Positions 13,421 to 31,567 of a DNA stretch of 64,000 bases are shown here, in pieces. The stretch is from Sphingopyxis sp. YR583 (GTDB lineage: Bacteria > Pseudomonadota > Alphaproteobacteria > Sphingomonadales > Sphingomonadaceae): positions 1,116,001 to 1,180,000 of the forward strand of contig NZ_FNWK01000001.1 in assembly GCF_900108295.1 (NCBI RefSeq), given 5' to 3'. How positions within the stretch are numbered: position 1 is the stretch's first letter; each line of letters begins with the position of its first letter. The notes under the pieces are model-generated. The model saw only the letters and a program-made list of their open reading frames with translations. It made no database searches and was not told where the DNA came from. Made by a program: the position numbers and the translations under genes.

Positions 13421-13429
13421 TCCTCTCCT

Positions 13430-13462
13430 GGAGGGCGGCCAGCGCACGACGCCCCGCCCTCC
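13430..13462 (+). terminator. Rho-independent terminator-like hairpin
   Basis: GGAGGGCGG pairs perfectly with CCGCCCTCC across 15 bases and is followed by GTCTTTTC. It lies between the amidohydrolase and the acyl-CoA synthetase and may limit read-through. Confidence 0.6.
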
Positions 13463-13483
13463 GTCTTTTCAGACGAGTCATTT

Positions 13484-15079
13484 ATGACTGATAGCGCGGC
13501 GGCCATTACGGCCCCGGTAGAACCGACCGCCGAAGAGCTTTTCGCTCTTGCCGGAAAGGGCATGTTGTTCAGCCATTGGGCCCGGCGGAACCGCGATCGC
13601 ACCGCGCTTCTATCACCGCGCGGCAATCGCAGCTTCGCCGAACTCAACGGCAACGCCAACCGGCTGCTCGCCCATTTTCACGCGGTCGGCCTCGTCCCCG
13701 GCGACGGCGTCGCGTTGCTCTGCGGCAATATACCCCAATTCATCGAGACTTATCTCGCCTGCCAGCGCGGCGGCCTGCGCCTGACCCCGATCAACTGGCA
13801 TCTTTCGCCGCGCGAGGCTTCGTATATCTTGGCAGATTGCGAGGCGAAGGCATGGGTCGTCCAGGGCGAGTTCGTCGACCTGACCGCACTCGCCCCGACC
13901 GCAATTGTCACGACACGTTTGACGACCGGCGTCGCGCGCGCCGGATTCGAAAGCTATGCACGCGCGCTCGACCGGCACGACGCGTCCGACCCAATCGACC
14001 CGGTCATCGGCACCGTCATGCTCTACACCTCGGGAACGACCGGTCAGCCCAAAGGAGTGGTCAGGCAGAATCCGATCATACTCATGCCACAGCGCGAGAA
14101 CAGCCTCTGCGATTATCGCGACGGCGATCTCAACCTGCTCTGCGGCCCCGCCTATCACGGCGGCCCGCTGACCTTCGACATCGCCTTTGCGATCGCCTCG
14201 GGCATTCCGCTGCTGATGATGGAGCGTTTCGACGCCGCGCAGTGGCTGTCGCTCGTCGGCAAATATCACGTCACCCATTCGCATATGGTGAGCACGATGT
14301 TCCGCCGGCTGCTTGCGCTCCCGGAAGAGGTGCGCAGAGCCGCGAACCTCGATAGCCTCAAGCGGATATTCCATGGCGCCGCGCCGACCTCGCCCGAGGT
14401 CAAGCGCGCGATGATCGACTGGTTTGGCCCGGTCCTCCACGAGTATTATGGCGCGACCGAGGCCTCGCCGGGGATCGGCATCACATCGGAAGACTGGCTC
14501 AAAAAGCCCGGAAGCGTTGGCCGCATTCCCGAAGGCTCGCCGGCATCGATCCGCGATGCCGATGGCAACTTGTGCGCGCCCGGAGAAATCGGGTTCGTCA
14601 GCTTCCCTTATAATCCAGCAACCAGCGCGAGCTATTTCCGCGCGCCCGAAAAGAACGCCGAAACCTTCGGGCGGAGCCATTTCAGCATCGGCGATCTCGG
14701 CTATGTCGACGAAGACGGCTATCTCTATCTCACCGGCCGCTCGGCCGAGGTGATCATCTCGGGCGGGGTCAACATCTACCCGCAAGAAGTCGACAATGCG
14801 CTCGCCAGTCATCCTGCGGTGCGCGAGGTCTGCACCGTCGGCGTGCCAAACGAAGAGTGGGGCGAGGAAGTAAAGGCGGTGGTCGCGCTCGCCGATGGCT
14901 TTGCCGCCTCGCCCGAACTCGAACGGCACCTGCTCGCCTATGCGCGCGAGCAGCTCGCCTCATTCAAAATCCCCCGTTCGATCGATTTCGTCGAGACGGT
15001 CCCGCACAGCGAAGCAGGCAAGGTCCTCCGTGCCGAGGTCCGCCGCGCCTATTGGGCCACGGCGACGCGGCAGATCTGA
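13484..15079 (+). CDS. AMP-binding acyl-CoA synthetase
   Basis: A 531-residue member of the ANL superfamily that activates a carboxylic acid to its CoA thioester through an acyl-adenylate. It shows the phosphate loop YTSGTTGQPKG (about 184-194), the YGATEA motif (about 325), the hinge GYLYLTGRSAEVIISGG region (about 415-430) and a C-terminal SEAGKVLR that supplies the adenylation lysine. It resembles long-chain or aryl/cyclic-acid ligases rather than acetyl-CoA synthetase. The flavin reductase begins within nine bases of its stop, so the two are surely co-transcribed. Substrate unknown. Confidence 0.92.
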   Translation: MTDSAAAITAPVEPTAEELFALAGKGMLFSHWARRNRDRTALLSPRGNRSFAELNGNANRLLAHFHAVGLVPGDGVALLCGNIPQFIETYLACQRGGLRLTPINWHLSPREASYILADCEAKAWVVQGEFVDLTALAPTAIVTTRLTTGVARAGFESYARALDRHDASDPIDPVIGTVMLYTSGTTGQPKGVVRQNPIILMPQRENSLCDYRDGDLNLLCGPAYHGGPLTFDIAFAIASGIPLLMMERFDAAQWLSLVGKYHVTHSHMVSTMFRRLLALPEEVRRAANLDSLKRIFHGAAPTSPEVKRAMIDWFGPVLHEYYGATEASPGIGITSEDWLKKPGSVGRIPEGSPASIRDADGNLCAPGEIGFVSFPYNPATSASYFRAPEKNAETFGRSHFSIGDLGYVDEDGYLYLTGRSAEVIISGGVNIYPQEVDNALASHPAVREVCTVGVPNEEWGEEVKAVVALADGFAASPELERHLLAYAREQLASFKIPRSIDFVETVPHSEAGKVLRAEVRRAYWATATRQI

Positions 15080-15087
15080 TCGTGACG

Positions 15088-15594
15088 ATGGTCCCCACTC
15101 TCAACGCCTTTCGCGAATCGATGGCGCGGCTCGCAGCAACAGTTCATATCGTCACCGCCGAAGCCGAAGGGCAACGTCACGGCATGACGATGACCGCTGC
15201 CTGCTCGCTGTCGGTCGATCCGATGTCGATGATCCTCTCGATTCATCGCGGATCGGCGACGCACTACGCGATCATCGCATCGCGGCGCCTTTGCCTCAAC
15301 ATGCTCGCCCCCGGCGACGACATGCTGGCGATGCGCTTCGCGGGCGCGCTCGGGCATCGCGGCGAAGACCGCTTCAACGAAGGTGACTGGCTCTGCCGTC
15401 CGGGCGCGCCTCCCCTGCTCCGCAGCGCCGCCGCGGCGCTGCAATGCGAGCTTGTCGAGGCGCATGGCTTCGGCACACACAGCGTCCTGCTCTGCGCGGT
15501 TCGCGACGTGCAACTCGGCTCGGGCGACGCCTCGCTCGTTTATGCCAACCGGCGCTACGGCGCCGTCCACCACCCCGCCGAAACAGAGATTTGA
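15088..15594 (+). CDS. Flavin reductase-like protein (HpaC/FMN-binding split barrel)
   Basis: About 168 residues of the flavin reductase domain family. The segment HGMTMTAACSLSVDPMSMILSI is the FMN-binding region, and a second conserved HRGEDRF-like stretch lies near residue 90. These proteins make free reduced FMN or FAD for a separate monooxygenase. No matching two-component oxygenase lies in the window; the monooxygenase at the left edge carries its own FAD/NADPH sites and should not need it. ATG at 15088 is preferred; a GTG at 15082 is possible, and neither has a strong ribosome site, fitting coupling to the ligase gene that ends at 15079. Confidence 0.85.
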   Translation: MVPTLNAFRESMARLAATVHIVTAEAEGQRHGMTMTAACSLSVDPMSMILSIHRGSATHYAIIASRRLCLNMLAPGDDMLAMRFAGALGHRGEDRFNEGDWLCRPGAPPLLRSAAAALQCELVEAHGFGTHSVLLCAVRDVQLGSGDASLVYANRRYGAVHHPAETEI

Positions 15595-15595
15595 C

Positions 15596-15997
15596 ATGCA
15601 AGCAGAAGAAATCGTCATCGAGACCGCTCCCGCCTTCTACAAGATTTTCGTCGGCGACCTCGAACGTTCGATCGGCTTTTATTCCGACTGCCTTGGCTTT
15701 CGCGAGCAGCGCCGCATCGACGCAGGCAAGTTCGACGAAGTGGTCCTCGCGCCGGGAAAGCAGGGCGCCAGCGTCGTGCTCTGCCGCTGGAAAGACGGGC
15801 GAGCGGTCGAAGCCGGCGCAGCGAACGGACCGACCGGGTATTTCGTTGCCGATGTCGACGCGATAGCGGCCCGGATGTCCGACCGGGGAGCCAAGATGGT
15901 GTTAGGTCCGCTGGACTATGCAGGAATGCGAATTGCCGTACTTGCTGATCCCGACGGCCACCAAATTGAACTTTTGGGTCGCAGGGCAGCCGGCTAG
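15596..15997 (+). CDS. VOC-family (glyoxalase/extradiol dioxygenase-like) protein
   Basis: A 133-residue single-domain protein with the vicinal oxygen chelate pattern: FVGDLERSIGFYSDCLGF near the N-terminus and ADPDGHQIELLG near the C-terminus, where the Glu is a usual metal ligand. The position of the first metal His in typical members appears to be another residue, so metal binding is uncertain. It starts two bases after the flavin reductase stop and closes the operon of ligase, reductase and VOC protein. Longer frames upstream overlap the reductase and are not credible. Confidence 0.85.
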   Translation: MQAEEIVIETAPAFYKIFVGDLERSIGFYSDCLGFREQRRIDAGKFDEVVLAPGKQGASVVLCRWKDGRAVEAGAANGPTGYFVADVDAIAARMSDRGAKMVLGPLDYAGMRIAVLADPDGHQIELLGRRAAG

Positions 15998-16107: not shown

Positions 16108-18195
16108 TCATGGCCCTTGCCAGGCCGACTTCATCGCGCTCCAATCGTCGTATTGAAGCTTTGCCATTGGATCGACCGCTTTCAGGTCGCGAAGCCAAAA
16201 ATCGAACCATTGAATGTTTCGCTTGAACACTGCGAGTTTGTGGGCGGGTTGCCACTTGATATGATGCTCGCCTGGGAAGACATACAGGTCAGCCGGAACT
16301 CGGGCAGCCCGAAGCGCAGTGAAGCTCTCCAATGCCGTGAGATATTCCCGATCCGCAGCCTGGAAGAGCATCGGGAAGGCGACGCGATGGGCATTTTGAG
16401 CCAAGGACATTCGGTCCCAAATGGCCGAGCCGCGGTCCGCAAGTCGCGGCCAACCAGCGTCCGCGAACGCCTCTGACACTCTCTCCCCGAGAAGAAAATC
16501 CTGCGACCGCTCCCAGCAGCACCCGCTCACCACCCCTGCGGCAAAACGTTTGCTGTTGAGAGCCGCAAATTGCACCGTCGACGAACCGTCGCTGAGCCCC
16601 GTTATCCCGATCTTCACCGGATCGACGTCCTCCTGCGCGACCAAGCGATCGATTGCCGCATCTATGACCGAGAGGACGTTCCGGCGATCGGTAAAGTCGT
16701 GAAGCAGCAATCGTTCGGCTTCAGCGACATTACGCGCGCCCGCTGCAAGCGCGATCCCGCTCGGGCGCTGGAGACTGATCACGACATAGCCGGCGTTTGC
16801 AAACGGTTGGATCGGAAACTCGTTTCCGGTCCCGCCGCGCAGGAAGCCGCGCGAGCTATATTGGACTATGACGGCAGGATAACGGGCACCGGGACGGTAG
16901 CCCACGGGATAGACGATATCCGTCCACGCTGCGACGCCAGACAGGCTCTTGAAATGCCAGCGCTCCACCCGTCCAAGGGAATAGGCCGCCATCTCGGGGT
17001 TGGGATCGACCAGCACCGACACGGTCCGGCGCTTCAAATCGATGCTCGCGATGTGGCGCGGCATCTGCGCAGTTTCGCGCGCACAGATCAGCCGGTTATT
17101 GGCCACGCGGCACCCGAAGAGGGCATCGATGGTCGCATAAAGTCGATGCGGCGTCCTCTGCCCCGGGCGCCATTCATAAATGGCAGTCTGCTCATCCGCC
17201 CATCCTTCGCGCCGAATGAAAAGAAGGCCGCGCATGTCCTGCGTCCAACCTAGAAGCTGTCCGACCCCTTGGCAGGCGGAGGCCATACAAGCAGTCCTCT
17301 TCCCCGACGGATCGATGATCGCCGGCCGCATCTTCGGCAAAAGCGACTGATCCTCATTTCGCTCGAGCAGCGCCCGCCGGCCACCCGCAGATTGAAGAGA
17401 CGTCTGGCCAGCGTCCAGACGTGCGACCTCGCCATCGCTGGCCGGGCGCGCTGCGCCGCTCGCGATGTCGAGCGAAACATCGCGAAGACTTCCCGCAACC
17501 GCCGGGTTGGGCCGGCTACCGGCAATGGGATAGAAGCGATCGTCATAGCGGAAGCCGGTCAGACCCTCGCGATCGATCTCGTCGCGTACGGCGAGAGTAC
17601 CTGCGGACGCGGAGTATATCAGCCGGCGTCCGTCGGCCGAAAAGGCGAAGCGTTCAATGTCGTCTTCGTCTGGCGAAAGCGGGACACTTGGCCGTCCGTC
17701 GATAAAGGCGCGCCAAATCCGGACGGCACCCCCAACCTGCTTCAGGAAGGCAAAACTCTGACCGTCGGGCGCCCATATCGGCGAGATCGCGCGCGCGCTG
17801 CCCGACGGCCCCGCGTCGAGCCGGCCGATGATCGTGCGCGTCCGGATGAGCTCGCCGCCTTCATCGACCTGAATAGCCGCAGCGCCCGGCCGGACGTCGG
17901 AAACGAACATTCCGATGCAGTGCCGGTTGGCTGCGGCATCGGCGCGGACGAGTTGATAAGCGATCCGTGAACCGTCCGGCGAGAGTGCGAAGAGGTTCGC
18001 GCCCTGCTCGGCATCCGTCGGGCCGATATCGCGAAGCGCCACAAGCTCTTCGCTGCCGAACGGCCTCAAGGTTCCGGCGGGCCGTTCCGCCGCCCGCGGA
18101 GCGAGCGCGGAACAGGTCTCCGCCGCCTGCGCCGCTCCCGGCAAGGCGACGAGAAGCAGCGTCGCCCATGCGGCGCGCAAATGAATGGCGCTCAC
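16108..18195 (-). CDS. Lasso-peptide isopeptidase, Atxe2-like (S9 prolyl-oligopeptidase family)
   Basis: A 695-residue S9-fold hydrolase with a signal peptide (cleavage near AQAAE, residue 23). The N-terminal part is a beta-propeller. The middle carries the CxxxxCQGVGQLLGW region, then DPNPEM and YSSRGFLRGGTGNEFPI, which I recognise from characterised lasso-peptide isopeptidases (AtxE2 of Asticcacaulis, SpI-IsoP of Sphingopyxis). The C-terminal hydrolase domain has Ser535 in GLSDG, an acid in ADREY (615-617) and His644/645 in GEHH. Such enzymes cut the isopeptide bond that closes the lasso ring. The GTG start overlaps the receptor stop by four bases (GTGA), indicating coupled translation; a second GTG lies just upstream. 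Longer frames overlapping the receptor are spurious. Confidence 0.9.
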   Translation of the reverse strand: MSAIHLRAAWATLLLVALPGAAQAAETCSALAPRAAERPAGTLRPFGSEELVALRDIGPTDAEQGANLFALSPDGSRIAYQLVRADAAANRHCIGMFVSDVRPGAAAIQVDEGGELIRTRTIIGRLDAGPSGSARAISPIWAPDGQSFAFLKQVGGAVRIWRAFIDGRPSVPLSPDEDDIERFAFSADGRRLIYSASAGTLAVRDEIDREGLTGFRYDDRFYPIAGSRPNPAVAGSLRDVSLDIASGAARPASDGEVARLDAGQTSLQSAGGRRALLERNEDQSLLPKMRPAIIDPSGKRTACMASACQGVGQLLGWTQDMRGLLFIRREGWADEQTAIYEWRPGQRTPHRLYATIDALFGCRVANNRLICARETAQMPRHIASIDLKRRTVSVLVDPNPEMAAYSLGRVERWHFKSLSGVAAWTDIVYPVGYRPGARYPAVIVQYSSRGFLRGGTGNEFPIQPFANAGYVVISLQRPSGIALAAGARNVAEAERLLLHDFTDRRNVLSVIDAAIDRLVAQEDVDPVKIGITGLSDGSSTVQFAALNSKRFAAGVVSGCCWERSQDFLLGERVSEAFADAGWPRLADRGSAIWDRMSLAQNAHRVAFPMLFQAADREYLTALESFTALRAARVPADLYVFPGEHHIKWQPAHKLAVFKRNIQWFDFWLRDLKAVDPMAKLQYDDWSAMKSAWQGP

Positions 18196-20783
18196 CACTT
18201 CTTGCTGATGGTAAAGCTTATCGTCCGGCCAAGGCTCGAGTGATTGGTCGAATCGTAAGGGGTCGAGACCGGGCTGCTCGTGCGAATGGGCGCCGGCTTC
18301 TCGTTGAGGAGATTGAGGATGGCCATATCGAATGAAAAGCCCGAGACAAAGGCCTGTCCCGGCGCCGTGCCGATTTGCGCGGTGAGATCGACCGTCTGAA
18401 AATCGCCGACCCGGGCGGTGGTCGGGAAGCGCGTATCGGTCGTCTTGCCGATGTAGTTCCATGCCGCGCCAAAACGGAAGGCGTCGCGCTTCCAGTTCAA
18501 CGAAGCGCGAGCGCGCCAATGCGGCGGATTGAAAATGATCCCCGACAGATCCTGCCAGGCCTGTCCCTCAACAAGCATCTGCTTGCTGTCGAGATAACTT
18601 GCCGAGCTCGCCAGCTCGAGCCGATCACGGGCGCTGACATTGCCCTCCCAGGTCGCGGTGAGATCGACACCCTGGATCGACTGGCGTGCGGCGTTAGCGA
18701 GGCTGCTGTCGACGATTGCGGAGATATTGGACGGATCGAACGGCGTGCCGGTCTGGTTGATGATGCCATAGGGCAAGCGCGATGCGATCGCGAGGACATC
18801 GGCGGCGCTCGGATTGAGAAGCACATAATCGGCATTCTGGGGAGCGAAGGCAGCCAGAACATTGCTTATCGGGGTTACGACGCGGTCGCGGTAGCGCGTC
18901 CTGAAATAGCTGGCCTCGAGCTTCAGCCCGTTAGCGAAGGCCGGTGTGTAGGTCGCCGTCGCGGTCCAGGTGTCCGCTTTCTCGGCGGTGAGCGCGGGGT
19001 TACCGCCGGCGAGATAGAAAACGGTCTGACCGCCGGGCGGGGTGAAGATCGCACCGGGAAAGAGATAACCCTCAAGCGGCTTGCCAAGCTGGAACAGGGT
19101 TGGCGCCTTGAACGACCGGCCCCAAGTCGCGCGAAGCGCAAGGTCGGAAACCGGGCGATAGATGATCCCGACCTTCGGCGTCGCAATGTCGCCGAAGCCG
19201 CTGTTATCCTCATAGCGAAGCGCTGCCGACAGCTGCAGTTCGCGCAGGCCCGCCGAACCGTTCGCCGCGCCCACGAGCGGCAGCGCCAGCTCGCCATAGG
19301 CGAAGCGGGTCTTGCGCTTCTCCTTGTAGACCCAGACCGGGGTCGTCGCGCCGCCAATGATCTGTCGATAGTCTGTATTCTGATCGTTCGCCCGGTAGCC
19401 GCCGCCGAAAGCGAGCCGCGCCGCACCGCCGGGCGCATCGAAGAGTCGCCCCTCGAACCCGAGCTCGACGGCATGGAAGCTGTTGTCATAATTGGGCAGG
19501 TAGAGCGCGGTCGGGTTGCCGCCCGCATAGACCTGCGTCACGATTTCAGTATCGCTGCGCGCATAGGTCCCCGAGAGCGTAGCCTGCCATCCGCCTGCGA
19601 GATCGGCGACAAGCGACGGCGTGACCGCGAAGGAGCGCACCCCGCGCCGCGCCTCCTGTCCCTGCGTCCGGCAATCGAGCGTGCCGACCGCGGACGAGCA
19701 GCGACGCGATGTGCGGTCGCTATATTGCCCGTCGATCTCCAGCCCGAGCCAGTCGCCGAGACGCTGATGACCGGCAACGACGATGCTCACTTGCCTGTAG
19801 CCCGGGATGAGCGTGGCGTCGGCATCGTCCCCTTGCGTGTAGCTTCGCTGACCGGCGCGAACCGGGGTTGCGCGATTATATTCGATCGTTGCGACCGCAC
19901 CGCCGCCCGACCAGCGGCTGCCGCCGGTCAGCACATATTGCTGTTCGGCCGCACCGCCGTCGGTTGCGGCGCCGAAGCGCGCCGACGTCTGAATTCCGTC
20001 GAAATCACGGCGCAAGATCAGGTTCACGACACCAGCGACCGCATCCGAGCCATAAAGAGCCGAAGCGCCATCGGTCACCACTTCTACCCGTTCGACGGAG
20101 GCGAGCGGAATGGCCGAAACGTCGACGCCCTGGAACACGCCATCGTAAGCGCTGCGATGGCCGTTGACGAGCGTCAGCGTCGCGTCGGAACCAAGCCCGC
20201 GCAAGTTGAAGGCGGAAGATCCCGTGGTGTCCTCGGAGCCTCCCTGCGAACCGCGCACACCGGGGTTCTGCCCGCCGTTGAAATTCTGGGTAAGCGTCCG
20301 CGCGAATTCGCCGAGATCGCTCGCGCCGCTTTCGGCAATCTGGTCGCGCTGACGTGTTAGCGTCGGCGACGGCGTCTGGGTGCCGCGAATGCGCGACCCG
20401 GTGACGACGATTTCCGCGTCCGCCATGACGACCTCGGGCGCGGTACCCGCGGTGTCAGTCGAAGCGCCGTTTCCCACCGCGCTCACGACGAAGGCACCCC
20501 CGCGCCCCCGCACCGCAGCGAGGCCCGACCCTCGAAGTAATACAGCAAGGCCCTGCTCCGCGCTGTAGCTCCCCTTGAGGACCGGCGCGCGTTTGCCGCG
20601 AACGAGCGCGCCATCGAACAGGATTTGCTGACGCGTCGTGCGCGCAAAAGCGCGGAGCGATGCGTCAAGCGGCTGGGCGGGCAGATCGAAACGGTAAGTC
20701 TGCGCCTGCGCGATCGCGGGCGCCGCCACCATGACCGCCGCCGATATCCCGAGGATCATCCCACCTGTCACGCGCCCCGTCAT
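18192..20783 (-). CDS. TonB-dependent transducer with STN domain (lasso-peptide module 1)
   Basis: An 863-residue receptor. After the signal peptide (cleavage near IAQAQ, about residue 28) comes an STN signalling domain (about 30-105, FDLPAQPLDASLRAFARTTRQ and YSAEQGLAVLLRGSG regions), a TonB box AEIVVTGSR, a plug with RGLGSDATLTLVNGHR and ASALYGSDAVAGVVN, and a barrel ending in SISKKW with a C-terminal aromatic residue. GGGGGACTGAT precedes the ATG. STN receptors pass ligand binding to a FecR anti-sigma factor, and the fecR-like gene is immediately upstream. The receptor probably imports lasso peptides for the isopeptidase encoded next. It is clearly a paralogue of the receptor at 25049. Confidence 0.93.
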   Translation of the reverse strand: MTGRVTGGMILGISAAVMVAAPAIAQAQTYRFDLPAQPLDASLRAFARTTRQQILFDGALVRGKRAPVLKGSYSAEQGLAVLLRGSGLAAVRGRGGAFVVSAVGNGASTDTAGTAPEVVMADAEIVVTGSRIRGTQTPSPTLTRQRDQIAESGASDLGEFARTLTQNFNGGQNPGVRGSQGGSEDTTGSSAFNLRGLGSDATLTLVNGHRSAYDGVFQGVDVSAIPLASVERVEVVTDGASALYGSDAVAGVVNLILRRDFDGIQTSARFGAATDGGAAEQQYVLTGGSRWSGGGAVATIEYNRATPVRAGQRSYTQGDDADATLIPGYRQVSIVVAGHQRLGDWLGLEIDGQYSDRTSRRCSSAVGTLDCRTQGQEARRGVRSFAVTPSLVADLAGGWQATLSGTYARSDTEIVTQVYAGGNPTALYLPNYDNSFHAVELGFEGRLFDAPGGAARLAFGGGYRANDQNTDYRQIIGGATTPVWVYKEKRKTRFAYGELALPLVGAANGSAGLRELQLSAALRYEDNSGFGDIATPKVGIIYRPVSDLALRATWGRSFKAPTLFQLGKPLEGYLFPGAIFTPPGGQTVFYLAGGNPALTAEKADTWTATATYTPAFANGLKLEASYFRTRYRDRVVTPISNVLAAFAPQNADYVLLNPSAADVLAIASRLPYGIINQTGTPFDPSNISAIVDSSLANAARQSIQGVDLTATWEGNVSARDRLELASSASYLDSKQMLVEGQAWQDLSGIIFNPPHWRARASLNWKRDAFRFGAAWNYIGKTTDTRFPTTARVGDFQTVDLTAQIGTAPGQAFVSGFSFDMAILNLLNEKPAPIRTSSPVSTPYDSTNHSSLGRTISFTISKKW

Positions 20784-20874
20784 ATCAGTCCCCCTGTTTG
20801 ACGCCGCGATCCAGCGGCATGGAGGATAAGACGCGCATGTTCAAAAGACTCACATCGACGAATTCATAAAATTG

Positions 20875-21927
20875 TCATCGCGGCCTGCTCGCGAGGATCA
20901 CCGCACCGCCTTCGCGGCGGACCTCGAGCGGATAGGCCATCTGCGCCGCGTCGAGGAAGGCGTCCGTATCGCCGGCATTGAACACGCCATTAATCTCGAT
21001 CGCGGCCGCACGCGCATCGCCTATGGTGACCTTCGCGCGGCTGTAGCGATTGAGCCGTTCAGCAACAGCGCTCAAGGGTTCATCGACGAAACTGAGCTGC
21101 CCCCCTTCCCAGGCGAGCGAACGCGCCACATCGGCCTCGACGATGGTCGGCGCCACGGGAGCCTTGACTGGCGCGACAAGTTCGCGGCCCGGCACGAGCG
21201 CGATCGCATCCTTGCCGGGCGTCCGTTTGAGCGCGAGGAGCCGCGGCGCCGAGGGCGGCTCGCCGCGCACCACCGCCACGCTGCCTTCGTAAAGGATGAC
21301 ATGAAGCTTGTCGCCTAGCAGTTCGACGCTGAACGCGGTGCCCGTTGCCACCACGGTCCGTCCGCCTGCGGTGACCGAGAAGGGCCGCGCAGCGTCCTTT
21401 TCGACATCGAACTTGGCGCGGCCTGCCAGCAGGTGGAGCATGCGCCGATCATCCGCGAGGTCGACCGCGACGCGCGTCTCCGCATCAAGTGACAGACGCG
21501 ACCCATCGGAGAGCACGAAAGTTCGCCGCTCACCGAGCCCGGTCGCATATTCCACCGGCCCGCCGCGGCCCGGAAAAAAGGCGATCGTCAGCGCGAGCAG
21601 CAGGCAAGCCGCCGCGACCATCGCCCAACGCCATCCGCGGCGCGGGGCACCTCGCGTCCATCGCTTAGCATTCGCTTCGCGCATCGCCTCCAGCGCTTCG
21701 GCACGCATGGCGATGACCTCAGCGTCCGCCTCCATCGCGTGGAGACCGCCCCACACCGCGAGCGCCCGCTCGAACGCCGGCGGATGCGCCGCATCGGCCG
21801 CAAGCCAGGCATCGAAGTCCGCCTGCTCAGCCGGATCCAGCGGAGCGCCGGCCATGCGAATGCACCACGCTCCCGCCGCCTCGCTGCTGCCAGTTCCCGC
21901 TTCCCGGCTCGATAGATCGTCGTTCAT
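20875..21927 (-). CDS. FecR-family anti-sigma factor (module 1)
   Basis: 350 residues. The N-terminal cytoplasmic part has the DUF4880 pattern (AAGAWCIRMAGAPLDPAEQ, FDAWLAADAAHPPAFERAL), followed by one membrane segment (about 95-115, WAMVAAACLLLALTIAFF) and a periplasmic FecR domain with LSDGSRLSLDAETRV and GTAFSVE. The last 90 residues resemble an STN-like fold. It should hold the ECF sigma factor inactive until the STN receptor signals. The start overlaps the sigma-factor stop by four bases (ATGA at 21924-21927). Confidence 0.92.
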   Translation of the reverse strand: MNDDLSSREAGTGSSEAAGAWCIRMAGAPLDPAEQADFDAWLAADAAHPPAFERALAVWGGLHAMEADAEVIAMRAEALEAMREANAKRWTRGAPRRGWRWAMVAAACLLLALTIAFFPGRGGPVEYATGLGERRTFVLSDGSRLSLDAETRVAVDLADDRRMLHLLAGRAKFDVEKDAARPFSVTAGGRTVVATGTAFSVELLGDKLHVILYEGSVAVVRGEPPSAPRLLALKRTPGKDAIALVPGRELVAPVKAPVAPTIVEADVARSLAWEGGQLSFVDEPLSAVAERLNRYSRAKVTIGDARAAAIEINGVFNAGDTDAFLDAAQMAYPLEVRREGGAVILASRPR

Positions 21928-22430
21928 TCGGCCTCCCCCAGCCTGTCGACCAGATAAGCCATCGCGCGGTAGACATGTTTTTGCACGGCGCTGCTGGATA
22001 TCCCGAAGCTCTCGGCGATCGTCCGGTAGTCGAGCTGCTCGTACCGAAACAGAAGAAATATCTGGCGCGTCCTCTCGGGCAGATCTTCGAGCCCGGCCCG
22101 CAGGATGTGGACGGCCTCACGTCCGGCGGCGACGCGGTGCGGGTCGATCGGATCGACGCCTCTTCCATCGATCGCGCGCGCTCCCGCCGCGAAATCGCGG
22201 CGCACCGCCATACGGCGCGCCCTGTCGCGCAAGAGGTTGGCCGCAACCTGGAAGATATAGGCGTCGGCCCGCCGCATCTCTACATCATCCATAGCTGCGA
22301 TCCGCGCGAAGACCTCCTGCGTCAGATCCTCGGCCTCGCTGTGATTGTGCACGCGGCGAAGGAAGAAGGCGAGCAGGCCGGGACGGTGATCCCGGTGCAT
22401 GTCCGCCAATGCTTCCTGCCTGTCGCCCAC
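21924..22430 (-). CDS. ECF sigma factor, FecI-like (module 1)
   Basis: 168 residues with sigma-70 region 2 (RRVHNHSEAEDLTQEVFARI, about 25-45) and region 4 (LPERTRQIFLLFRYEQLDYRTIAESFGISSSAVQKHV, in parts, about 115-150). I prefer the GTG at 22430, which has AGGAG at five bases; the GTG at 22436 overlaps that site. It would direct transcription of the receptor and isopeptidase genes when released by FecR. It heads the leftward run of module 1; 190 bases of featureless sequence separate it from module 2. Confidence 0.9.
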   Translation of the reverse strand: MGDRQEALADMHRDHRPGLLAFFLRRVHNHSEAEDLTQEVFARIAAMDDVEMRRADAYIFQVAANLLRDRARRMAVRRDFAAGARAIDGRGVDPIDPHRVAAGREAVHILRAGLEDLPERTRQIFLLFRYEQLDYRTIAESFGISSSAVQKHVYRAMAYLVDRLGEAE

Positions 22431-22619
22431 CTGCACTCCTGCATTCTTCCGGGCTGAAAATTCTCCCGAACGATATTAGACGCACGAGCCGAGCCAAGTC
22501 ACACCACGCTCCCCAATTTTATTTTCGGCGCTGCTCGATAGTGGGGCAGATATTGGAGGCAGAAGGGGATAAGCGGACGCAAAGCACTGCGCTTGAATTC
22601 TGCGACTGCAGGGTCGCGA

Positions 22620-25016
22620 CTAGGGACTGACTGCGTTCGCCACCGACGAGCCCGGTTCTCGTGCCGGTTTCACATAGCGATCCAGAAAGTCGATCGCCCG
22701 CCGCCCCAGGTCTGCGGCATTTGCAGTCGACCAGTGACTCGGCACATGGGCTTCACCGGCATATTCGGCAAATTCCGCAGTCTTTCCTGCAAAGCGCAAA
22801 GCATTGAACATCTTCCGGGCGTCCTCAATCGGAATGAGGTCGTTCGAACCATGTGCGATCAGGATCGGCGCTTGCATTCTTCCCGCCTGAAAGAATGGCG
22901 AAAGCTGGATGTAGCTGTCCATGTTCGCCCATGGCAGGCCTTTGATGTTCCAATACTGCTCGATTGCCCCGGGCGGATAGCCGAAATCCCGGTTCTTGCC
23001 CATGAATGCGGTCAGATATGTCAAATCATAGGCTCCCGCGAGCGCGATGCCGCCGCGAAACAGGTCGCTCTCTATCAGCAGCGACGCGGTCGTGTATCCG
23101 CCAAAGGACTGTCCCATGACCGCGAGACGCGACATATCGACATAGCCGAGATCGGAGGCATGCCGGATCTGCGGCGTCAGCAGCCCCTTGACGTCGTCGA
23201 CCACCGATGGGCTGATTTCACCGAGCGGCCGGACCGGCAGTTCTGTCACCAGAACCGCATAACCGCGGGTCGTAAAAATCGACGCCGGCATGGTTTGTTG
23301 AAAGCCTCCCCCGAACTTGCCCACCCGCGTGGTTGAGCGCGGATAGACCGTGACCACCGTCGGCAAACGGTCGCCGCGCTTCGCGCCGGGCGGAAGGTAA
23401 AGCGCCGATTTCACGCTGTTCCCCGCGCCATCGAGACGATTGACCGGTGTATCAAACAACACGGGGGGAGCGAAAGTGAACCCGTCGAGTCTGGGTTCGA
23501 CATGGGAAACCCGCTGTTTGATCGAGAGATCCGGATTGAACCGGATAATATCCTCTGGCGTGGAGTTATCCTCGTAGATCGCGAGCAGGTCCTGCGAGCC
23601 ACGCACCTGACCGACAGGATCGATCGTAGCGAAATCGGTCCACATCGACGAGACTGCCCCCGACAAAATATCGAGGCGCAGCACGGCAGTCTTGCCCGTC
23701 GCCCTTTCCCGAGCGCGCGCCGCAACCGAATTCGCATCGGGTTGCCACAACCGTCCATCCCCGTCGCGAACGAGGTTGTCTGCGAGAAACCCGGAAGGAA
23801 TTTCGATACGCCGTCCCGCCCGGCCATCGAGACGAACCAGCTCGAAGGCGCCCGGATGCGGTTCGAGATAAGCCGGGTCGTCGAGGGGATCGATCCCGAC
23901 CACGAGCGCATTTCCATCGTTCATCAGACCCAGCGCATCGGGAATCGCCGTCGACAGCTTGGCCGATACGCGGTGCGGCGTGAAGCCGTCGTCGGCTCCG
24001 GCTGTCCACAGCCCGCCATCCTGGACCCAGAAAATCTCGTCGCGGACAGGATGCCAGAAATGCGAACCCTTCAGATAATGGGACTCCATCCGCGTGAGCC
24101 GCTCCGCGACAAGCTTCGCGGCCCCGCCGCCGACCGGCGCGACGCCGAGGTCAATATTGGGCCTGGCGCCGCCTGTCTCGTTGCCGACATGCGAAATAAA
24201 GGAAATCCAGCGCCCGGATGGTGACAGCAGCATTGCGCTCGGGGGCTTTGCATAATCGTGAGACACGATCGTTCGGACCCGTCCGCCCGCGACGTCGATA
24301 GCCGCGAGGTCGGCGTGAAACAGGGTCTCGACATGCTTGGCCAAGGCTATAGCGGAGGCATCGGAGGCCGGTGCAGCGCCTGACGAAGCACCGCCCGTAG
24401 TTTGAAAAGTCACTGCCGCTGCCGGTCCGGACTCCGGTCGCGCTCCGGACGACAATGGCTCGGGCACGAGCGGCGCAAGCAGCTGCTCGCCGCCGGGCAG
24501 CCAGATCGGCTCGTCGCCCGTCCATAGACTCGCCTTGATGCGCGCTTCCGAAATCCGGCGACTCTTGCCCGAGGCCAGGTCATGGATCCACAATTGAGGC
24601 GCGTCGCCGCCGTCGCAGTAGGACGCGATGCTCTTCTCGTCCGGCGAAAAGACCGGGCGCCAGCAATTCCCCACCCCTTGCCCGATTGCCTTCGTCTCGC
24701 CGCTGACCAGATCGACCAGCCATATTGCGGTGTTGGGGATTTGCCCTGGCACGCCATTGCTCATGAACCGGTCAGCGCCCGAAGACGTAATCGGCCGTTC
24801 CCCCACCGTATAGGCCAGCAGATGCCCCGAGTGCGAAAGGACCGGTCGATGTCCCGACTTGAGCTCGCGGGCACTGACGGGCAGATCGAAAGGCATGACC
24901 TTGCCTTCAGCTTCCGCAGCACTGGCTGCGACCGGGATAAATAGCGGGCCCAGCAACACAGATGTGGCGGCAAGGAGGGTGCGCTTCCGGAAGCACCGGA
25001 CAGGATTTGACGTCAT
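22620..25016 (-). CDS. Secreted S9-family peptidase (DPP IV/acylaminoacyl-peptidase-like; module 2)
   Basis: 798 residues with a signal peptide (cleavage near SAAEA, about residue 34), a beta-propeller and a C-terminal alpha/beta hydrolase domain. The triad is Ser637 in GQSFGG, Asp726 in HGSNDL and His757 in GEAHVPSH. It lacks the DPNPE and RGFLRGGTG signatures of the Atxe2-like enzyme at 16108, so it belongs to another S9 branch. It follows its STN receptor by 32 bases, with GGAG before the ATG. By position it should cleave whatever that receptor imports, presumably a peptide; whether it opens lasso rings is unknown. Confidence 0.9.
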   Translation of the reverse strand: MTSNPVRCFRKRTLLAATSVLLGPLFIPVAASAAEAEGKVMPFDLPVSARELKSGHRPVLSHSGHLLAYTVGERPITSSGADRFMSNGVPGQIPNTAIWLVDLVSGETKAIGQGVGNCWRPVFSPDEKSIASYCDGGDAPQLWIHDLASGKSRRISEARIKASLWTGDEPIWLPGGEQLLAPLVPEPLSSGARPESGPAAAVTFQTTGGASSGAAPASDASAIALAKHVETLFHADLAAIDVAGGRVRTIVSHDYAKPPSAMLLSPSGRWISFISHVGNETGGARPNIDLGVAPVGGGAAKLVAERLTRMESHYLKGSHFWHPVRDEIFWVQDGGLWTAGADDGFTPHRVSAKLSTAIPDALGLMNDGNALVVGIDPLDDPAYLEPHPGAFELVRLDGRAGRRIEIPSGFLADNLVRDGDGRLWQPDANSVAARARERATGKTAVLRLDILSGAVSSMWTDFATIDPVGQVRGSQDLLAIYEDNSTPEDIIRFNPDLSIKQRVSHVEPRLDGFTFAPPVLFDTPVNRLDGAGNSVKSALYLPPGAKRGDRLPTVVTVYPRSTTRVGKFGGGFQQTMPASIFTTRGYAVLVTELPVRPLGEISPSVVDDVKGLLTPQIRHASDLGYVDMSRLAVMGQSFGGYTTASLLIESDLFRGGIALAGAYDLTYLTAFMGKNRDFGYPPGAIEQYWNIKGLPWANMDSYIQLSPFFQAGRMQAPILIAHGSNDLIPIEDARKMFNALRFAGKTAEFAEYAGEAHVPSHWSTANAADLGRRAIDFLDRYVKPAREPGSSVANAVSP

Positions 25017-25048
25017 GAAAGTCTCCGTCGGATTGGGAGGTGCGCGCG

Positions 25049-27607
25049 TTACCAGCGCTTGGAGATACTGAAGCTCACGAAGCGGCCCACCGGCGAATAG
25101 TTCGTCGAGTCATACGGCGGCTGATAGACGATCGTCGTCGCGATCGCGGACGGCTTGGTGTTGAACATATTCTCAAGCGAGAGGCTGAGATCGAGCCCGC
25201 GTAGTAACGAAGCCCCTTCTTCGAACCGGTAGCGGGCGATGAGATCGACCGTCGTCATCCCGTCGATCGCGAGCGACGTTGCCGTGCGCGCGTCGGATAC
25301 GCCGCCGGTGTAATTGACGAAGGAAGAGAGGGTGAAGCCGCGATCGGAATAGGCCGCGCCGCCCCGGACCCGAAAATGCGGCGGATTGAAAAGATATCCC
25401 GCAAGCGGTTGTTCAGGTTGGAGCGCACTCAGCACCTGCTTGCTATGGATATAGCTTCCATAGAGTGACAGATCGATCTTGCGCGCGCCGCCGACATCGA
25501 AGCCATAGCGCGCATCGATGTCGACACCGCGGATCGACTGCGTGCTCGCGTTGACGCGTCGATTGTCGATGATGGCTACTACCTTCGCAGGATCATAGGG
25601 AACCGTCGTGGCATTGGTGTAGGTGCCTGCTGCCAAGGCAGCCGCCAGTTTCGCTGCGTTCGGCGATAGAGTCACCTGCTCGCCATATATCGGATTGGAT
25701 AGCGACGTGCTGCTGTAGAGGATCGGCACGACAACACGGTCGCGGTAATCCACCTCATAATAGGTCACCTCAAGTCGCGCGCCGGCAAGCGCCACGGGAT
25801 GGGCGACGAACGATGCCGACCAACTCGTCGCTCGCTCCGGTTTCAGTGACAGGTTCCCGCCGGCAAGAAAGAGGACGGTCGCATCCGCGGGATAGGCCGA
25901 GCCGCCTAGTCGCGACGCCTGATAGAGGATGGTCGAATTTCCGCTCAACTGTTCGTAGAAAGTTGGCGCGCGGAATGATTTTCCCCAAGTCGCCTTCAGT
26001 TCGAAATCGGCGCTCGGCGCATAAATGAGCCCGAACTTGGGCGTAGTAACCCGATACTCGCCGGTATAATCTTCGTACCGAAGCGCGGCGGCCAGGTTGA
26101 GACTGTGAAGTCCCGCAATATCCTGAGCGGGGGATGCTATCGGAACATTAATCTCGCCGAATGCATAGACGGTGTCCCGTGTCAGCCTGATATCGCGCGC
26201 CGACGCGGCCGGGATAGTCCGCTGGTCATGCCAGTAGTTCGCACGATACCCCCCACCGACGGCAACCCGAATGTCGCCCGACGGCAGGGTAAACAACGGT
26301 CCGTCCGCCGCGAGTTCGGCCGACATCCCTTCATTGCAATAGCACCCCGAACCCGCAACCGAAGTAACCCCCGAGATCGTCTGGACCGATCGATAGTCCG
26401 AGGAATTCATCGAATAGGTTCCGCTCAGCGACACGGCCCAGCCGGGCGAGACTTTCCAGTCGAGCGACGACGCCAGCGACAGACCTTCGATCTCATATCG
26501 CTCGTCGAGGTTGTAGGGCATTGTCGGCACGATCGGGATGATCCGGTTGCTTGAGCGCCGGTTGTACAGGGCATCCAGGCGGATCGAGAGATCGGGAACG
26601 ATCTGTTGTTCGGCGCCGAACGCAACCGCGTGCCATTTCTGGTTCGGCTGGTACATCAACTCGTCGGCGGGGCCCGTCCCCAGATCGCGTTGCGACGCCT
26701 TGATCGCGGTCGTCCGCCCGAATTCGTAAGCGAGCCAGACGCCGCCGCTGTCCCAGCTCGTACCGCCGATCAAGCCATATTGCTGCTGCTCGTTACCGCC
26801 GTCCGTCGACGCACCCCAGCGCGCCGAGGCTTCGAGGCCATCAAAGCGCTTTTTCAGCAGGATGTTCGCAACCCCGGCGACCGCGTCCGATCCGTACAGC
26901 GCCGATGAACCGTCAGGAACGACCTCGATCCGGTCGAGTGCCAGAAACGGGATAGCCGATACGTCGATCCCCTGCTGCGCGCCACCATAGGCGACGCGGT
27001 GACCGTTAAGCAGGGTGAGTGTTGCGTCGCTACCGAGGCCGCGCAGGTTGATGGTCGCCGCCCCGCCAAAGCCGGTACCGCGGCTCTCGGGAACACCATA
27101 GCCGACACCGGCGTTGCTACCGCCGCCGAAGTTCTGGGGGATGGTACGGATCACGTCAGCGACGCTCGCCTGCCCGGCGTTGCGCATATCCTCGGCAGTC
27201 CGCACAACGACCGGAGATGCGACACTGTTCCCGCGGATACGCGACCCGGTGACAATGATTTCAGCGTCCTCGCTATCGGCCGCGGCGCTTCCGGCCTCGC
27301 TTTCCCCCGCGACGATGGCAATCGCGCCCGAGGTGTCGATCCGGTAGCTGAAGCCGGTGCCGCGGAGCAGCGCCGCGAGCGCCGCTTCTGCAGAAAGCGA
27401 TCCCCGAACGCCGGCCGAACGCGCCCCTCGAATATCGTCCGCCTTGTAGATGATCTGCCGACCGGACTGGCGGCCATAGGCATCGAGCGCCGACTTCAGA
27501 CTCCCCGCTGCGATATTATAGGCTCGGGTCTGAGCCTGCGCCGGCGTCGCCATCGCGACCACACACACGCCTGTAGCAAGCGTCGCAGCAAGGCTTCTCA
27601 TCTTCAT
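25049..27607 (-). CDS. TonB-dependent transducer with STN domain (module 2)
   Basis: 852 residues from the ATG at 27607, which has GGGGGAAACG upstream and starts MKMRSLAATLATG; an in-frame upstream start at 27640 is less likely. It has a signal peptide (cleavage near AQAQT), an STN domain (about 28-100, YNIAAGSLKSALDAYGRQSGRQ), a TonB box AEIIVTGSR, a plug with RGLGSDATLTLLNGHR and SSALYGSDAVAGVAN, and a barrel ending SISKRW. It is closely paralogous to the module 1 receptor throughout the plug and barrel ends. It likely senses and imports a peptide and signals through the FecR/FecI pair upstream. Confidence 0.93.
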   Translation of the reverse strand: MKMRSLAATLATGVCVVAMATPAQAQTRAYNIAAGSLKSALDAYGRQSGRQIIYKADDIRGARSAGVRGSLSAEAALAALLRGTGFSYRIDTSGAIAIVAGESEAGSAAADSEDAEIIVTGSRIRGNSVASPVVVRTAEDMRNAGQASVADVIRTIPQNFGGGSNAGVGYGVPESRGTGFGGAATINLRGLGSDATLTLLNGHRVAYGGAQQGIDVSAIPFLALDRIEVVPDGSSALYGSDAVAGVANILLKKRFDGLEASARWGASTDGGNEQQQYGLIGGTSWDSGGVWLAYEFGRTTAIKASQRDLGTGPADELMYQPNQKWHAVAFGAEQQIVPDLSIRLDALYNRRSSNRIIPIVPTMPYNLDERYEIEGLSLASSLDWKVSPGWAVSLSGTYSMNSSDYRSVQTISGVTSVAGSGCYCNEGMSAELAADGPLFTLPSGDIRVAVGGGYRANYWHDQRTIPAASARDIRLTRDTVYAFGEINVPIASPAQDIAGLHSLNLAAALRYEDYTGEYRVTTPKFGLIYAPSADFELKATWGKSFRAPTFYEQLSGNSTILYQASRLGGSAYPADATVLFLAGGNLSLKPERATSWSASFVAHPVALAGARLEVTYYEVDYRDRVVVPILYSSTSLSNPIYGEQVTLSPNAAKLAAALAAGTYTNATTVPYDPAKVVAIIDNRRVNASTQSIRGVDIDARYGFDVGGARKIDLSLYGSYIHSKQVLSALQPEQPLAGYLFNPPHFRVRGGAAYSDRGFTLSSFVNYTGGVSDARTATSLAIDGMTTVDLIARYRFEEGASLLRGLDLSLSLENMFNTKPSAIATTIVYQPPYDSTNYSPVGRFVSFSISKRW

Positions 27608-27684
27608 CGTTTCCCCCTGTACGGCCGCACCCTGTTGCAACCCTCAGGAATAACGACAAACCGGCGTCACATAACCGTAACGCA

Positions 27685-28656
27685 TCAGCTCGAGATTTTT
27701 ATCGCGTCGGGCGTGACATCGACGCGGAGGCCATAGGCATCGCGCAGCAGCCGGGCGAAGGCCTCCACATTCGAGGCCTGAAACGTGCCGCCGATACGAA
27801 TGCTCGCAGCCTCGGGATCGGTCACGAGAATCGGGCGCTGGTGGTAACGGCTGAACTCCGCCGCCGCGTCGGCAAGGCTCGTCTGGTCGAAACTGAGCAT
27901 ACCGTCGCGCCAGGCGAGCGCGTTTCCGACACGCTCTTCGGAGCGTTCGGCAACGAGGATCGAGCGGCCATCGCTGATGGCTGACATGCCGCCCGTGATC
28001 GTCGCAGACGCCGGGCGCGCGCCTCCGCCGGGAACCTCGTCAATCCGGACCCTGCCCTCGATCACCGATACCGATACCCTCTCACCGTCACGCCGGACCG
28101 AAAATTTCGTGCCGAGCACGGTCACCGTCCGGGTTCCTGCATGTACGACAAAGGGCCGGCCCGCATCATGGGCCACCTCGAAATAGGCTTCGCCATCCTC
28201 GAGCCATATATCCCGGCGTCCCGAGGACGCCGACGACCGGATCACGCTGCGGGTGTTGAGTTCAACATGGCTGCCGTCGGCAAGCTCGACATTCTTGCGC
28301 TCGCCCACGGGAGACCGGAAGGTCAGGGCGACCTGCTGCCGCGCTGCCGGCCGCGGCACGATCTGGATCGAGCCGATCCAGACAGCGACCGCGAGCGAGG
28401 CAGCAAGCGCGAAGGGTTTCCAATGTCGGCGCAACGGGCCTTCGATGGGTGGAACCGTCTCCGGCTCAACCCCGAGCGAGCCGATGCGGTCTGCCTCACG
28501 CCAGCTATGCTTCAATCGCCAGTAGGCTGCCTTGTTGCCGTCGGATTCGGCAAGCCAGGCGTCGAGATCGACCTGGTCGCTTTCCGACCAGTCACCGTTT
28601 TCGCGGCGTATGATCCAGGCGGATGCCTTGTCGGACGCCTCCGCTGCGCGGCTCAT
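27685..28656 (-). CDS. FecR-family anti-sigma factor (module 2)
   Basis: 323 residues. The N-terminal DUF4880 part (ASAWIIRRENGDWSESDQ, DAWLAESDGNKAAYWRLKHSW) precedes one membrane segment (about 83-100) and a periplasmic FecR domain (LADGSHVELNTRSVI, AYFEVAHDAGRPFVV, GTKFSVR). It ends with an STN-like region. It overlaps the sigma-factor gene by four bases (28653-28656) exactly as in module 1, and is followed after 77 bases by its receptor. Confidence 0.92.
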   Translation of the reverse strand: MSRAAEASDKASAWIIRRENGDWSESDQVDLDAWLAESDGNKAAYWRLKHSWREADRIGSLGVEPETVPPIEGPLRRHWKPFALAASLAVAVWIGSIQIVPRPAARQQVALTFRSPVGERKNVELADGSHVELNTRSVIRSSASSGRRDIWLEDGEAYFEVAHDAGRPFVVHAGTRTVTVLGTKFSVRRDGERVSVSVIEGRVRIDEVPGGGARPASATITGGMSAISDGRSILVAERSEERVGNALAWRDGMLSFDQTSLADAAAEFSRYHQRPILVTDPEAASIRIGGTFQASNVEAFARLLRDAYGLRVDVTPDAIKISS

Positions 28657-29225
28657 ATCTCTCTCCCCTGCCGCCCTTTCCGGGCAAGTTTCTGTCTTAT
28701 GATCTTGCCAGTTCCGCCCAGCATGAAGTCGGCAAGCGCCTTCATACCCATGGAAAGCTGACGCTCGACGGCATCGATGCCGATGCCGAGATGCGCCGCC
28801 GTCTCGCGCGTGTTCATGCCTTCGATCTTGCGGAGCAGGACGATCTGGCGGACGCGCGGCGAAAGCCGGTCGATCCCTTCCTGCGTGCGCCGGAGCGCCT
28901 CGCGGGCCAGGACATGCCGTTCGGCGGTCAGCAGGTCGGCGTCATGTTGCACGGCCTCGAGATCGGCAACGAGTTCGAACGAAACGATGCGCGCCCGCTT
29001 GGCACGGTTGATCAGATGGTTGCGGGCAACCGTAAACAGATAGGGCCTGACCTCGTCCGGCAGGCAGCGGCGGGCACCGGCAATGACCTGCTCGTAAATG
29101 TCGTGCCGCAGATCGACGACGTCATCCGCGACCCGCCAGTTGCGCCGGATAAACTGGGTCAGCGCCGCCTCATTCGGCAGCACCTCGCGGCAGAACCAGC
29201 TCTCGAGAATATCGTCATCCACCAT
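28653..29225 (-). CDS. ECF sigma factor, FecI-like (module 2)
   Basis: 190 residues from the ATG at 29225 (MVDDDILESW), with GGGAGG about 12 bases upstream; longer in-frame starts extend into sequence without similarity. Region 2 (DLRHDIYEQVIAGARR, YLFTVARNHLINRAKR) and region 4 (LSPRVRQIVLLRKIEGMNTRETAAHLGIGIDAVERQL, in parts) are clear. It should be released by the adjacent FecR to transcribe the receptor-peptidase pair. It is divergent enough from the module 1 sigma factor to suggest distinct promoter preferences. Confidence 0.9.
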   Translation of the reverse strand: MVDDDILESWFCREVLPNEAALTQFIRRNWRVADDVVDLRHDIYEQVIAGARRCLPDEVRPYLFTVARNHLINRAKRARIVSFELVADLEAVQHDADLLTAERHVLAREALRRTQEGIDRLSPRVRQIVLLRKIEGMNTRETAAHLGIGIDAVERQLSMGMKALADFMLGGTGKIIRQKLARKGRQGREI

Positions 29226-30940: not shown

Positions 30941-31495
30941 ATGCGCAATTCACTATTCCTCGCTTCCGCAGCTATCGCATTGGTCGGCTTCAACGCCGCC
31001 CCCGCTATGGCGGAAACACTCAGTGTGCAGGGCGTCGTTGCCCCCTATTGCAACGTCAATCTCACCAATGTCTCGAGCGGCACCGCCTCGATCGCCTTCA
31101 CCGACAACCAGAAGGTCGCGAACCTGCGCCTTTCGTGCAATGCCGCTTCGGGAACGAAGATGGTCACCGATCCGCTGAACGGTGACTTGCTCAGCGCTGC
31201 CGGCAATCGCATCAACTATGCGATGACGCTGAAGTCGCCCACCAATGCCAATTTCGTGATCAATGAAACCGACACGGCGCCGGGCAATGCCGAAGCCGTT
31301 GGCCTCTTCACGCGGCAGCAGGCCGGCTATGCGCAGAGCGTCGCCAACGGCCTTCCGCTCGAGCTCTGGCTCAATGTGAACGTCGAGAACGCCAATACCC
31401 AGCCGGATTTCTCGACCCCCAACGTGTTCCCGGCTGATGCGGCGCCTGCTGGCACCTATACCGAGGTGTTCAGCTTCACCGCTTCGTCCATCTGA
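30941..31495 (+). CDS. Fimbrial major subunit-like secreted protein
   Basis: 184 residues with a signal peptide (cleavage near AMAET, residue 24) and a beta-rich body with two cysteines (APYCNVNL, about 37, and LSCNAA, about 66) placed like the disulfide of chaperone-usher pilins. AAGGGA precedes the ATG. It is the first gene of a four-gene operon with chaperone, usher and a tip-like protein, so it is most likely the repeating shaft subunit. Confidence 0.82.
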   Translation: MRNSLFLASAAIALVGFNAAPAMAETLSVQGVVAPYCNVNLTNVSSGTASIAFTDNQKVANLRLSCNAASGTKMVTDPLNGDLLSAAGNRINYAMTLKSPTNANFVINETDTAPGNAEAVGLFTRQQAGYAQSVANGLPLELWLNVNVENANTQPDFSTPNVFPADAAPAGTYTEVFSFTASSI

Positions 31496-31567
31496 TCGGA
31501 CGGGTCATGCATGGGATCGCCTTCACGGGCGGTCCCATGCTGCATTTTGACGGCGGGAACATGTCTC

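Follow-up and report, generated by a model that had tools for sequence, protein, structure and literature searches.

Sphingopyxis sp. YR583 carries, in a 64,000-nucleotide stretch of its genome (the window; contig NZ_FNWK01000001.1, positions 1,116,001 to 1,180,000), two consecutive modules of genes for an extracytoplasmic function (ECF) sigma factor, a FecR regulator, a TonB-dependent transporter (TBDT) with an STN domain, and an S9 family peptidase. The initial annotation, made from the letters alone, had described two such runs in the same order and orientation, and the coordinates and Pfam domains agree. Reading the minus strand from 29225 to 16108, the order is FecI2-FecR2-TBDT2-PEP2 and then FecI1-FecR1-TBDT1-peptidase 1, with all eight genes confirmed at these places:

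28653..29225, minus strand: FecI2, ECF sigma factor of module 2 (Pfam Sigma70_r4_2, region 4, and Sigma70_ECF)
27685..28656, minus strand: FecR2, anti-sigma/sigma regulator of module 2 (FecR, PF04773)
25049..27640, minus strand: TBDT2, TonB receptor of module 2 (Pfam STN (62-110), Plug and barrel)
22620..25016, minus strand: PEP2, S9 peptidase 2 of module 2, 798 aa (Pfam Peptidase_S9)
21924..22436, minus strand: FecI1, ECF sigma factor of module 1 (Pfam Sigma70 regions 2 and 4)
20875..21927, minus strand: FecR1, module 1 (Pfam FecR and DUF4880)
18192..20783, minus strand: TBDT1, TonB receptor of module 1 (Pfam STN (53-102), Plug and barrel)
16108..18195, minus strand: peptidase 1 of module 1, 695 aa, predicted Atxe2-family lasso isopeptidase (NF033523; Pfam Peptidase_S9)

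By Pfam, the FecIRA-type signalling gene set (ECF sigma factor, FecR and STN-bearing TonB receptor) is complete in both modules. The four-base overlap of FecI and FecR, also reported in the initial annotation, is seen twice (21924-21927 and 28653-28656), and the TBDT1 and peptidase 1 genes likewise overlap by four bases (18192-18195). TonB-box-like sequences are present at residue 124 of TBDT1 (EIVVTGSRIRG) and residue 127 of TBDT2 (EIIVTGSRIRG). The open frame of FecI2 reaches upstream to 29342 with a GTG start; that of TBDT2 starts with TTG and has its first ATG at 27607.

Peptidases and receptors of the two modules

Peptidase 1 scores 720 bits on the NF033523 model, 'Atxe2 family lasso peptide isopeptidase', which has a curated cut-off of 400, and aligns with AtxE2 (5txc) over residues 18-691 of its 695 (469 bits). 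Its putative catalytic residues are Ser535-Glu617-His645, and Ser535 aligns with the serine that is alanine in entry 5txe. The catalytic serine, glutamate and histidine are near-invariant in 104 isopeptidases of complete lasso loci and are retained in peptidase 1, in which none of the 25 near-invariant columns (those at least 97% identical in the 104) is violated. Judged by its sequence, peptidase 1 is an Atxe2-family lasso isopeptidase, and the conservation makes lasso specificity likely. Signatures of both AtxE2 and SpI-IsoP had been claimed for it; the AtxE2 part stands, while chain 5jrk, taken here as SpI-IsoP although this is not in the name of the entry, gives a weak match of 77 bits.

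PEP2 reaches only 86 bits on the same model, and on this score was rejected as a lasso isopeptidase. The picture of two equivalent lasso-type modules therefore has to be given up: only module 1 has a recognised isopeptidase. The best PDB sequence matches of PEP2 are an S9 family peptidase (8wt1), chloroplast glutamyl endopeptidase and PH0594, and its putative triad, Ser637-Asp726-His757, is invariant in a three-row alignment (A4). Homologues are scarce. In an even set of 347 genomes of the family, with two candidates scored per genome, three have one at E<=1e-50, this genome included, and both other homologues stand behind FecI-FecR-TBDT.

The receptors of the two modules resemble those of lasso loci equally. 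The TBDT2 barrel has its best identity, 51%, to lasso cluster L082, and the TBDT1 barrel has its best match among complete lasso loci in L144 (49%); by tree, the TBDT2 plug and barrel are nearest to complete lasso loci L083, L171 and L167. At E<=1e-40 the only relatives of TBDT2 in its own genome are TBDT1 and the receptor of an isopeptidase module on contig C3 (89 of 89 candidates scored). Module 2 can be read as a lasso-type receptor with a putatively exchanged peptidase.

Stand-alone modules in the genome and the family

The order FecI-FecR-TonB receptor-isopeptidase and the Atxe2-family enzyme are shared with isopeptidase lasso clusters of the astexin-2/3 (AtxE2) and benenodin (BenE) type. 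One review describes the architecture of the clusters known in 2022 as almost constant, precursor gene included (PMC9266682). The window genome differs from these in that no precursor, leader protease (B2) or cyclase (C) was found in it, and in that its FecI, FecR and STN belong to another lineage.

That these biosynthetic genes are missing from the window had been noticed in the initial annotation, and the searches bear it out: profiles for C and B2 match nothing in the window or its two flanks of 20 kb each, and tblastn with 271 C and B2 proteins found none in the window at E<=0.01. The annotation had also proposed a search of the whole genome and had considered a precursor and cyclase pair close outside the window. 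No such pair was found. The genome (G000; 4.31 Mb in 5 contigs, rated 100% complete) has no match to B2 (PF13471; 29 of 29 candidates scored) and no precursor match at E<=1 (24 of 24 scored) to a profile of 44 rows, selected among 91 precursor-like frames that precede B2 genes. Its three Asn_synthase matches are, by NCBIfam, an XrtA/PEP-CTERM amidotransferase, MnmA and QueC, none of them a lasso cyclase. Of the 12 genomes searched with this precursor profile, 9 have a precursor at E<=7.1e-6, in some cases one that is itself a row of the profile; G162 has none, and G245 only a match of E 0.69.

A second stand-alone Atxe2-family isopeptidase is present in the same genome, in a module of the same order:

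L012:12432-19114 (G000, contig C3): FecI-FecR-TBDT-isopeptidase (NF033523, 728 bits)

In this enzyme, too, 0 of the 25 near-invariant columns are changed. No C or B2 match lies in the surrounding 20 kb or in a further 20 kb on each side (L263 and L264), and tblastn at E<=0.01 gave none in L012 and one chance-level B2 match (E 0.004) in the flank L263. The genome has 11 FecR genes. Inspection of the eight outside the three modules, over about 6 kb, showed neither a strong S9 match nor a receptor of the lasso type next to them; L280 has a 22-bit S9 match.

How common are modules of this kind? All 63 loci with an isopeptidase over the NF033523 cut-off, from 51 of the 347 genomes, were fetched; B2 was over its cut-off in 155 of the 347. 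In these multi-genome searches the top candidates of each genome were scored (12 for B2, three for NF033523), which makes per-genome absences soft; for G000 and 15 other genomes B2 was scored in full. C and B2 stand beside the isopeptidase, mostly tail to tail, at 51 of the 63 loci. Six are partial (L089, L090, L094, L095, L109 and L114), some of them at contig ends, and six have neither gene nearby. One of these six, L084, was dropped as an orphan, since C and B2 are present about 24 kb away (L243, contig C17 of G163); it is a split cluster and was moved to the class 'unsure'. This leaves five orphan loci in four genomes: module 1 of the window, L012, L088, L120 and L125. Wider sampling, in which 22 of 24 genus matches were fetched (G356:C36 and G391:C211 were left out), added L225, the second module of L229, L190, L184 and L195. 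Isopeptidase matches under 250 bits or 600 aa were dropped, and SpI-type enzymes are accordingly not in the isopeptidase tree.

Among the genomes that bear orphans, no B2 match was found in G000 and G245; one or more are present in G110, G164, G396 and the genomes of L190 and L184, and L229 itself holds one. A possible cluster 29 kb from the orphan of G245 (L257), with adjacent weak B2-like and C-like tblastn matches (E 0.006 and 0.0007), was rejected because the C-like match falls in a frame that by eye begins like MnmA. Orphan modules also occur in company. In G110 one is divergent from two further modules, of which one has a PEP2 homologue (34% identity), in G396 one stands beside another receptor-S9 module, and a metagenome-assembled genome (MAG) of the Kordiimonadaceae (L190) has two modules in tandem.

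The survey also brought out variation among the lasso clusters themselves. Ten complete clusters (L092, L093, L098, L099, L106-L108, L110, L111 and L237) have FecI, no FecR match and a receptor that is shorter, at 783-833 aa; they may represent a variant that lacks the anti-sigma factor and the STN domain. A second type of isopeptidase occurs in the lasso clusters L202, L203, L205 and L208-L219 (e.g. L217:8834-11029), mainly in Sphingopyxis and Blastomonas. The enzyme of L217, the only one of this type scored, reaches 167 bits on NF033523 and is missed by that model; the L217 precursor resembles sphingopyxin I. Decayed or rearranged clusters were seen at L095 (G162), at L139 and L143 (G201), where a single broken gene may account for two partial isopeptidase matches some 87 kb from each other, and at L194, which has gene fragments throughout. 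The precursors of these clusters (alignment A3) have a common leader motif like IDLGxASxETKG and often end in GLSDD.

Regulator lineages and a recombination seam

To compare regulators we took loci with both FecI and FecR matches, which leaves out 19 of the 104 complete loci and the orphans L184 and L195, and added as generic modules seven of the eight own-genome FecR loci, those with a FecI match. The 10 'unsure' rows (11 with L084) were not counted in changes between orphan and complete, except that the isopeptidase count still includes L084. As the lasso chassis clade we took, after the tree had been seen, the FecI+FecR clade that has the largest number of complete loci and is free of generic modules. 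Its support in a quick tree is 100; of the complete loci it takes in 84 of 85, of the 'unsure' loci 8 of 9, and of the 8 orphans none. FecI and FecR of both window modules lie outside it.

When orphans were set against complete loci in eight independent pairs on the isopeptidase tree, regulator type differed the same way in a mean of 7.9 and the opposite way in 0 (200 pairings); a sign test on these eight pairs gives a median p of 0.0078, with a range to 0.016. In a more careful FecI+FecR tree of 49 rows, all but one of the 32 lasso rows form a group with support of 100/99. The orphan label takes 2 changes on this tree, where shuffled labels need 6.7 on average and none of 500 shuffles gets as low. 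Three groups of orphans have support of 100/100. The first contains window module 1, L012, the first module of L242 and two generic own-genome modules; the second, window module 2, L120, L125 and L252; the third, L088, L225 and L229.

The signalling parts and the rest of the modules have different histories. Changes between orphan and complete number 2 for 8 orphans with FecI, 3 for 9 with FecR and 2 for 8 with the STN domain, against 9 for 9 with the barrel, 8 for 9 with the whole receptor and 10 for 11 with the isopeptidase, for which the shuffled mean is 10.6-10.7 and 131 of 500 shuffles are as low. A dedicated orphan clade of isopeptidases was therefore rejected: the orphans are scattered, and forcing seven of them into one clade gives a p-AU of 2.4e-51. 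A single dedicated orphan lineage of regulators was dropped as well. The orphans clustered at first, but the seven generic own-genome modules are interleaved with them, and we therefore claim only that the regulators are not of the lasso-type lineage. By the trees, orphan modules have non-lasso FecI, FecR and STN under lasso-type receptors and are of mosaic ancestry. This different lineage of regulators and STN, which the initial annotation missed, is the strongest evidence that the modules are rewired and not leftover.

The same gene set of ECF sigma factor, FecR and STN receptor is found in the FecIRA and PupIR-PupB systems, and FecI1 and FecR1 group with generic own-genome modules. Unlike in those systems, the receptor plug and barrel in the window branch among lasso-cluster receptors, and an isopeptidase is linked.

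A junction between the two ancestries is preserved in a relative. Locus L229 (G349), the DNA of which is also in the record of Sphingopyxis sp. GW247-27LB (L154), has a complete lasso cluster back to back with a second FecI-FecR-TBDT-isopeptidase module. A stretch of 4,289 bp in this second module has 95.8% DNA identity to the complete cluster L153 of Sphingopyxis sp. LC363. It starts around TBDT codon 126, where STN meets plug, and reaches almost to the end of the isopeptidase gene, which lies at L229:15684-17810. In 50-residue windows the plug and barrel are 94-100% and the isopeptidase 86-100% identical (68% in the last stretch), whereas FecI, FecR and the STN part are at 10-44%. Across the junction 5,362 bp are identical in L154 and in a record of an uncultured Sphingopyxis MAG (L181), which may be from the same strain as L229. 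The next 35 kb after the second module (L275 and L278) have no C, B2 or isopeptidase match. The precursor matches of the L229 host are L229:2089-2226, L214:13672-13812 (G349:C4 was equated with L214 by coordinates) and one weak match (E 0.015); the L153 precursor, encoded at L153:14527-14652, is not among them. The DNA that follows the second module (L229:18475-19054) is 86% identical to the DNA that precedes FecI in the related cluster L230, as if the module had been inserted beside a resident cluster. One review describes PupB/PupA chimeras in which an N-terminal swap rewires signalling and keeps the choice of ligand (PMC9249621), and the engineered PupBA chimera is the laboratory counterpart of the natural L229 seam.

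In the window, two other runs flank the modules, both recognised by eye. At 9756-15997 on the plus strand an operon-like run converges on module 1, with a TonB receptor without FecI/FecR and amidohydrolase-like, acyl-CoA ligase, flavin-reductase-like and glyoxalase-like proteins. At 30941-35684, also on the plus strand, a run resembles spore-coat-U/Csu-type fimbrial genes with chaperone and usher.

Origin and function of the modules

What are these modules for? The functions of FecIRA and of the AtxE2 family are established, and by analogy with them a foreign lasso peptide would bind the plug and barrel of the TonB receptor, which would signal through its STN domain to FecR and FecI and raise expression of the receptor operon. 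The peptide would then be imported, and the module 1 isopeptidase would open the knot by cutting the isopeptide bond, after which the peptide could be degraded or its cargo released. Module 2, with its lasso-type receptor and different S9 peptidase, would probably handle a related peptide. Such modules could have arisen when the plug/barrel-isopeptidase half of a lasso cluster was joined at the STN-plug junction to the FecI-FecR-STN of a general module, which would uncouple uptake from production. We favour this explanation, a stand-alone receiver of the lasso peptides of other cells which arose as receptor-isopeptidase pairs acquired, time and again, a new signalling chassis, at a probability of roughly 0.6. 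It builds on gene content, the family of peptidase 1, the failure to find biosynthetic genes, regulator lineage, the mosaicism of the trees and one clean seam in a relative. We infer from these the ligand, its import and cleavage in vivo, the benefit to the cell, and that the window modules arose by the same kind of event as L229. Sensing, import and opening of foreign lasso peptides had been proposed in the initial annotation for both modules, with the peptide as nutrient, metal source or signal; of this, the analysis supports the lasso-type receptor and isopeptidase of module 1 and not an isopeptidase role of PEP2, which falls outside the Atxe2 family.

Several observations weigh against this explanation, the low NF033523 score of PEP2 among them. 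The orphans are spread over several regulator lineages and not one, and three loci break the chassis rule: L192, which is complete, lies outside the lasso chassis clade, and the complete Brevundimonas locus L165_3052 (FecR and STN only) and L165_12371, in which the cyclase is cut by the contig or locus end, group with orphans. None of the three is recorded as a sphingomonad. The identity drop at the STN-plug junction in the window itself (28% vs 62%) is no sharper than in some control pairs, and segment identity was rejected as proof of a seam there. Ligand, expression and enzyme action of the window modules are predictions from sequence. Finally, isopeptidases are said, in one review, to cut only peptides of their cognate cluster (PMC9266682), and the closest isopeptidase to peptidase 1 among the matches listed is 46% identical; for these reasons its substrate cannot be named and may have drifted.

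The strongest of the alternatives is a change of use: the modules would take up and hydrolyse peptides of another kind (linear, cyclic or isopeptide-linked) and would have lost the response to lasso peptides. This fits the long end branches of the G000 orphan isopeptidases (0.86 and 0.98, against a median of 0.45), the different type of S9 peptidase in module 2 and a chassis of the generic kind. We nevertheless regard it as unlikely, given that the near-invariant isopeptidase columns are kept and that the second module of L229 is nearly identical in plug, barrel and isopeptidase to a lasso-cluster pair, so that the ligand there should be unchanged.

Alternatively, the modules could be the remains of a former lasso producer that lost its A, B and C genes, with the receiver half not yet decayed. 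Incomplete clusters do exist in relatives: L095 has a cyclase fragment 99.5% identical to that of L092 and no B2, L090 a cyclase with no B2 found, and L094 a cyclase frame in two pieces. However, the orphans do not look like decayed clusters. No C or B2 remnant was detected by tblastn in the window or L012, apart from the chance-level match in the L263 flank, and both isopeptidases of the genome are intact. Incomplete or split loci with both regulators (L084 and L090) have lasso-type FecI and FecR, and the eight orphans do not. This reading is already weakened, and we consider it improbable. A lasso peptide system encoded elsewhere in the genome, which the modules would serve in trans, is hardly credible: the G163 cluster, split over about 24 kb, demonstrates that separation can happen, but G000 has no detectable B2, precursor or lasso cyclase in an assembly rated as complete.

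More generally, the receiver explanation would make these loci a recurrent kind, in which a lasso receptor plug and barrel and its isopeptidase are re-plugged at the STN-plug junction into a general sigma/anti-sigma chassis, and in which the peptides of neighbours are sensed and consumed by non-producers or by producers of a different lasso peptide. We put this forward tentatively, at slightly less than even odds. Several receivers, with peptidases that can be interchanged, may come together in one island. A parallel is siderophore piracy, in which receptor-only strains likewise retain or acquire the receptor but not the pathway that makes its ligand; here the ligand would be a knotted ribosomal peptide, and the opening enzyme travels with the receptor. 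Among the titles and abstract starts in the matches listed, we found no isopeptidase modules without biosynthesis, and primary AtxE2 papers could still mention such.

The role of the lasso peptides of isopeptidase clusters is called enigmatic in one review (PMC9266682). The genes of these clusters resemble a siderophore circuit, and stand-alone rewired receivers would imply that lasso peptides act between cells, whether as signals, as carriers or as food, and that stealing them pays. A ligand can also be predicted from the mosaic rule: the L229 orphan should respond to the peptide encoded beside L153, so that a question of function becomes one for a simple reporter experiment.

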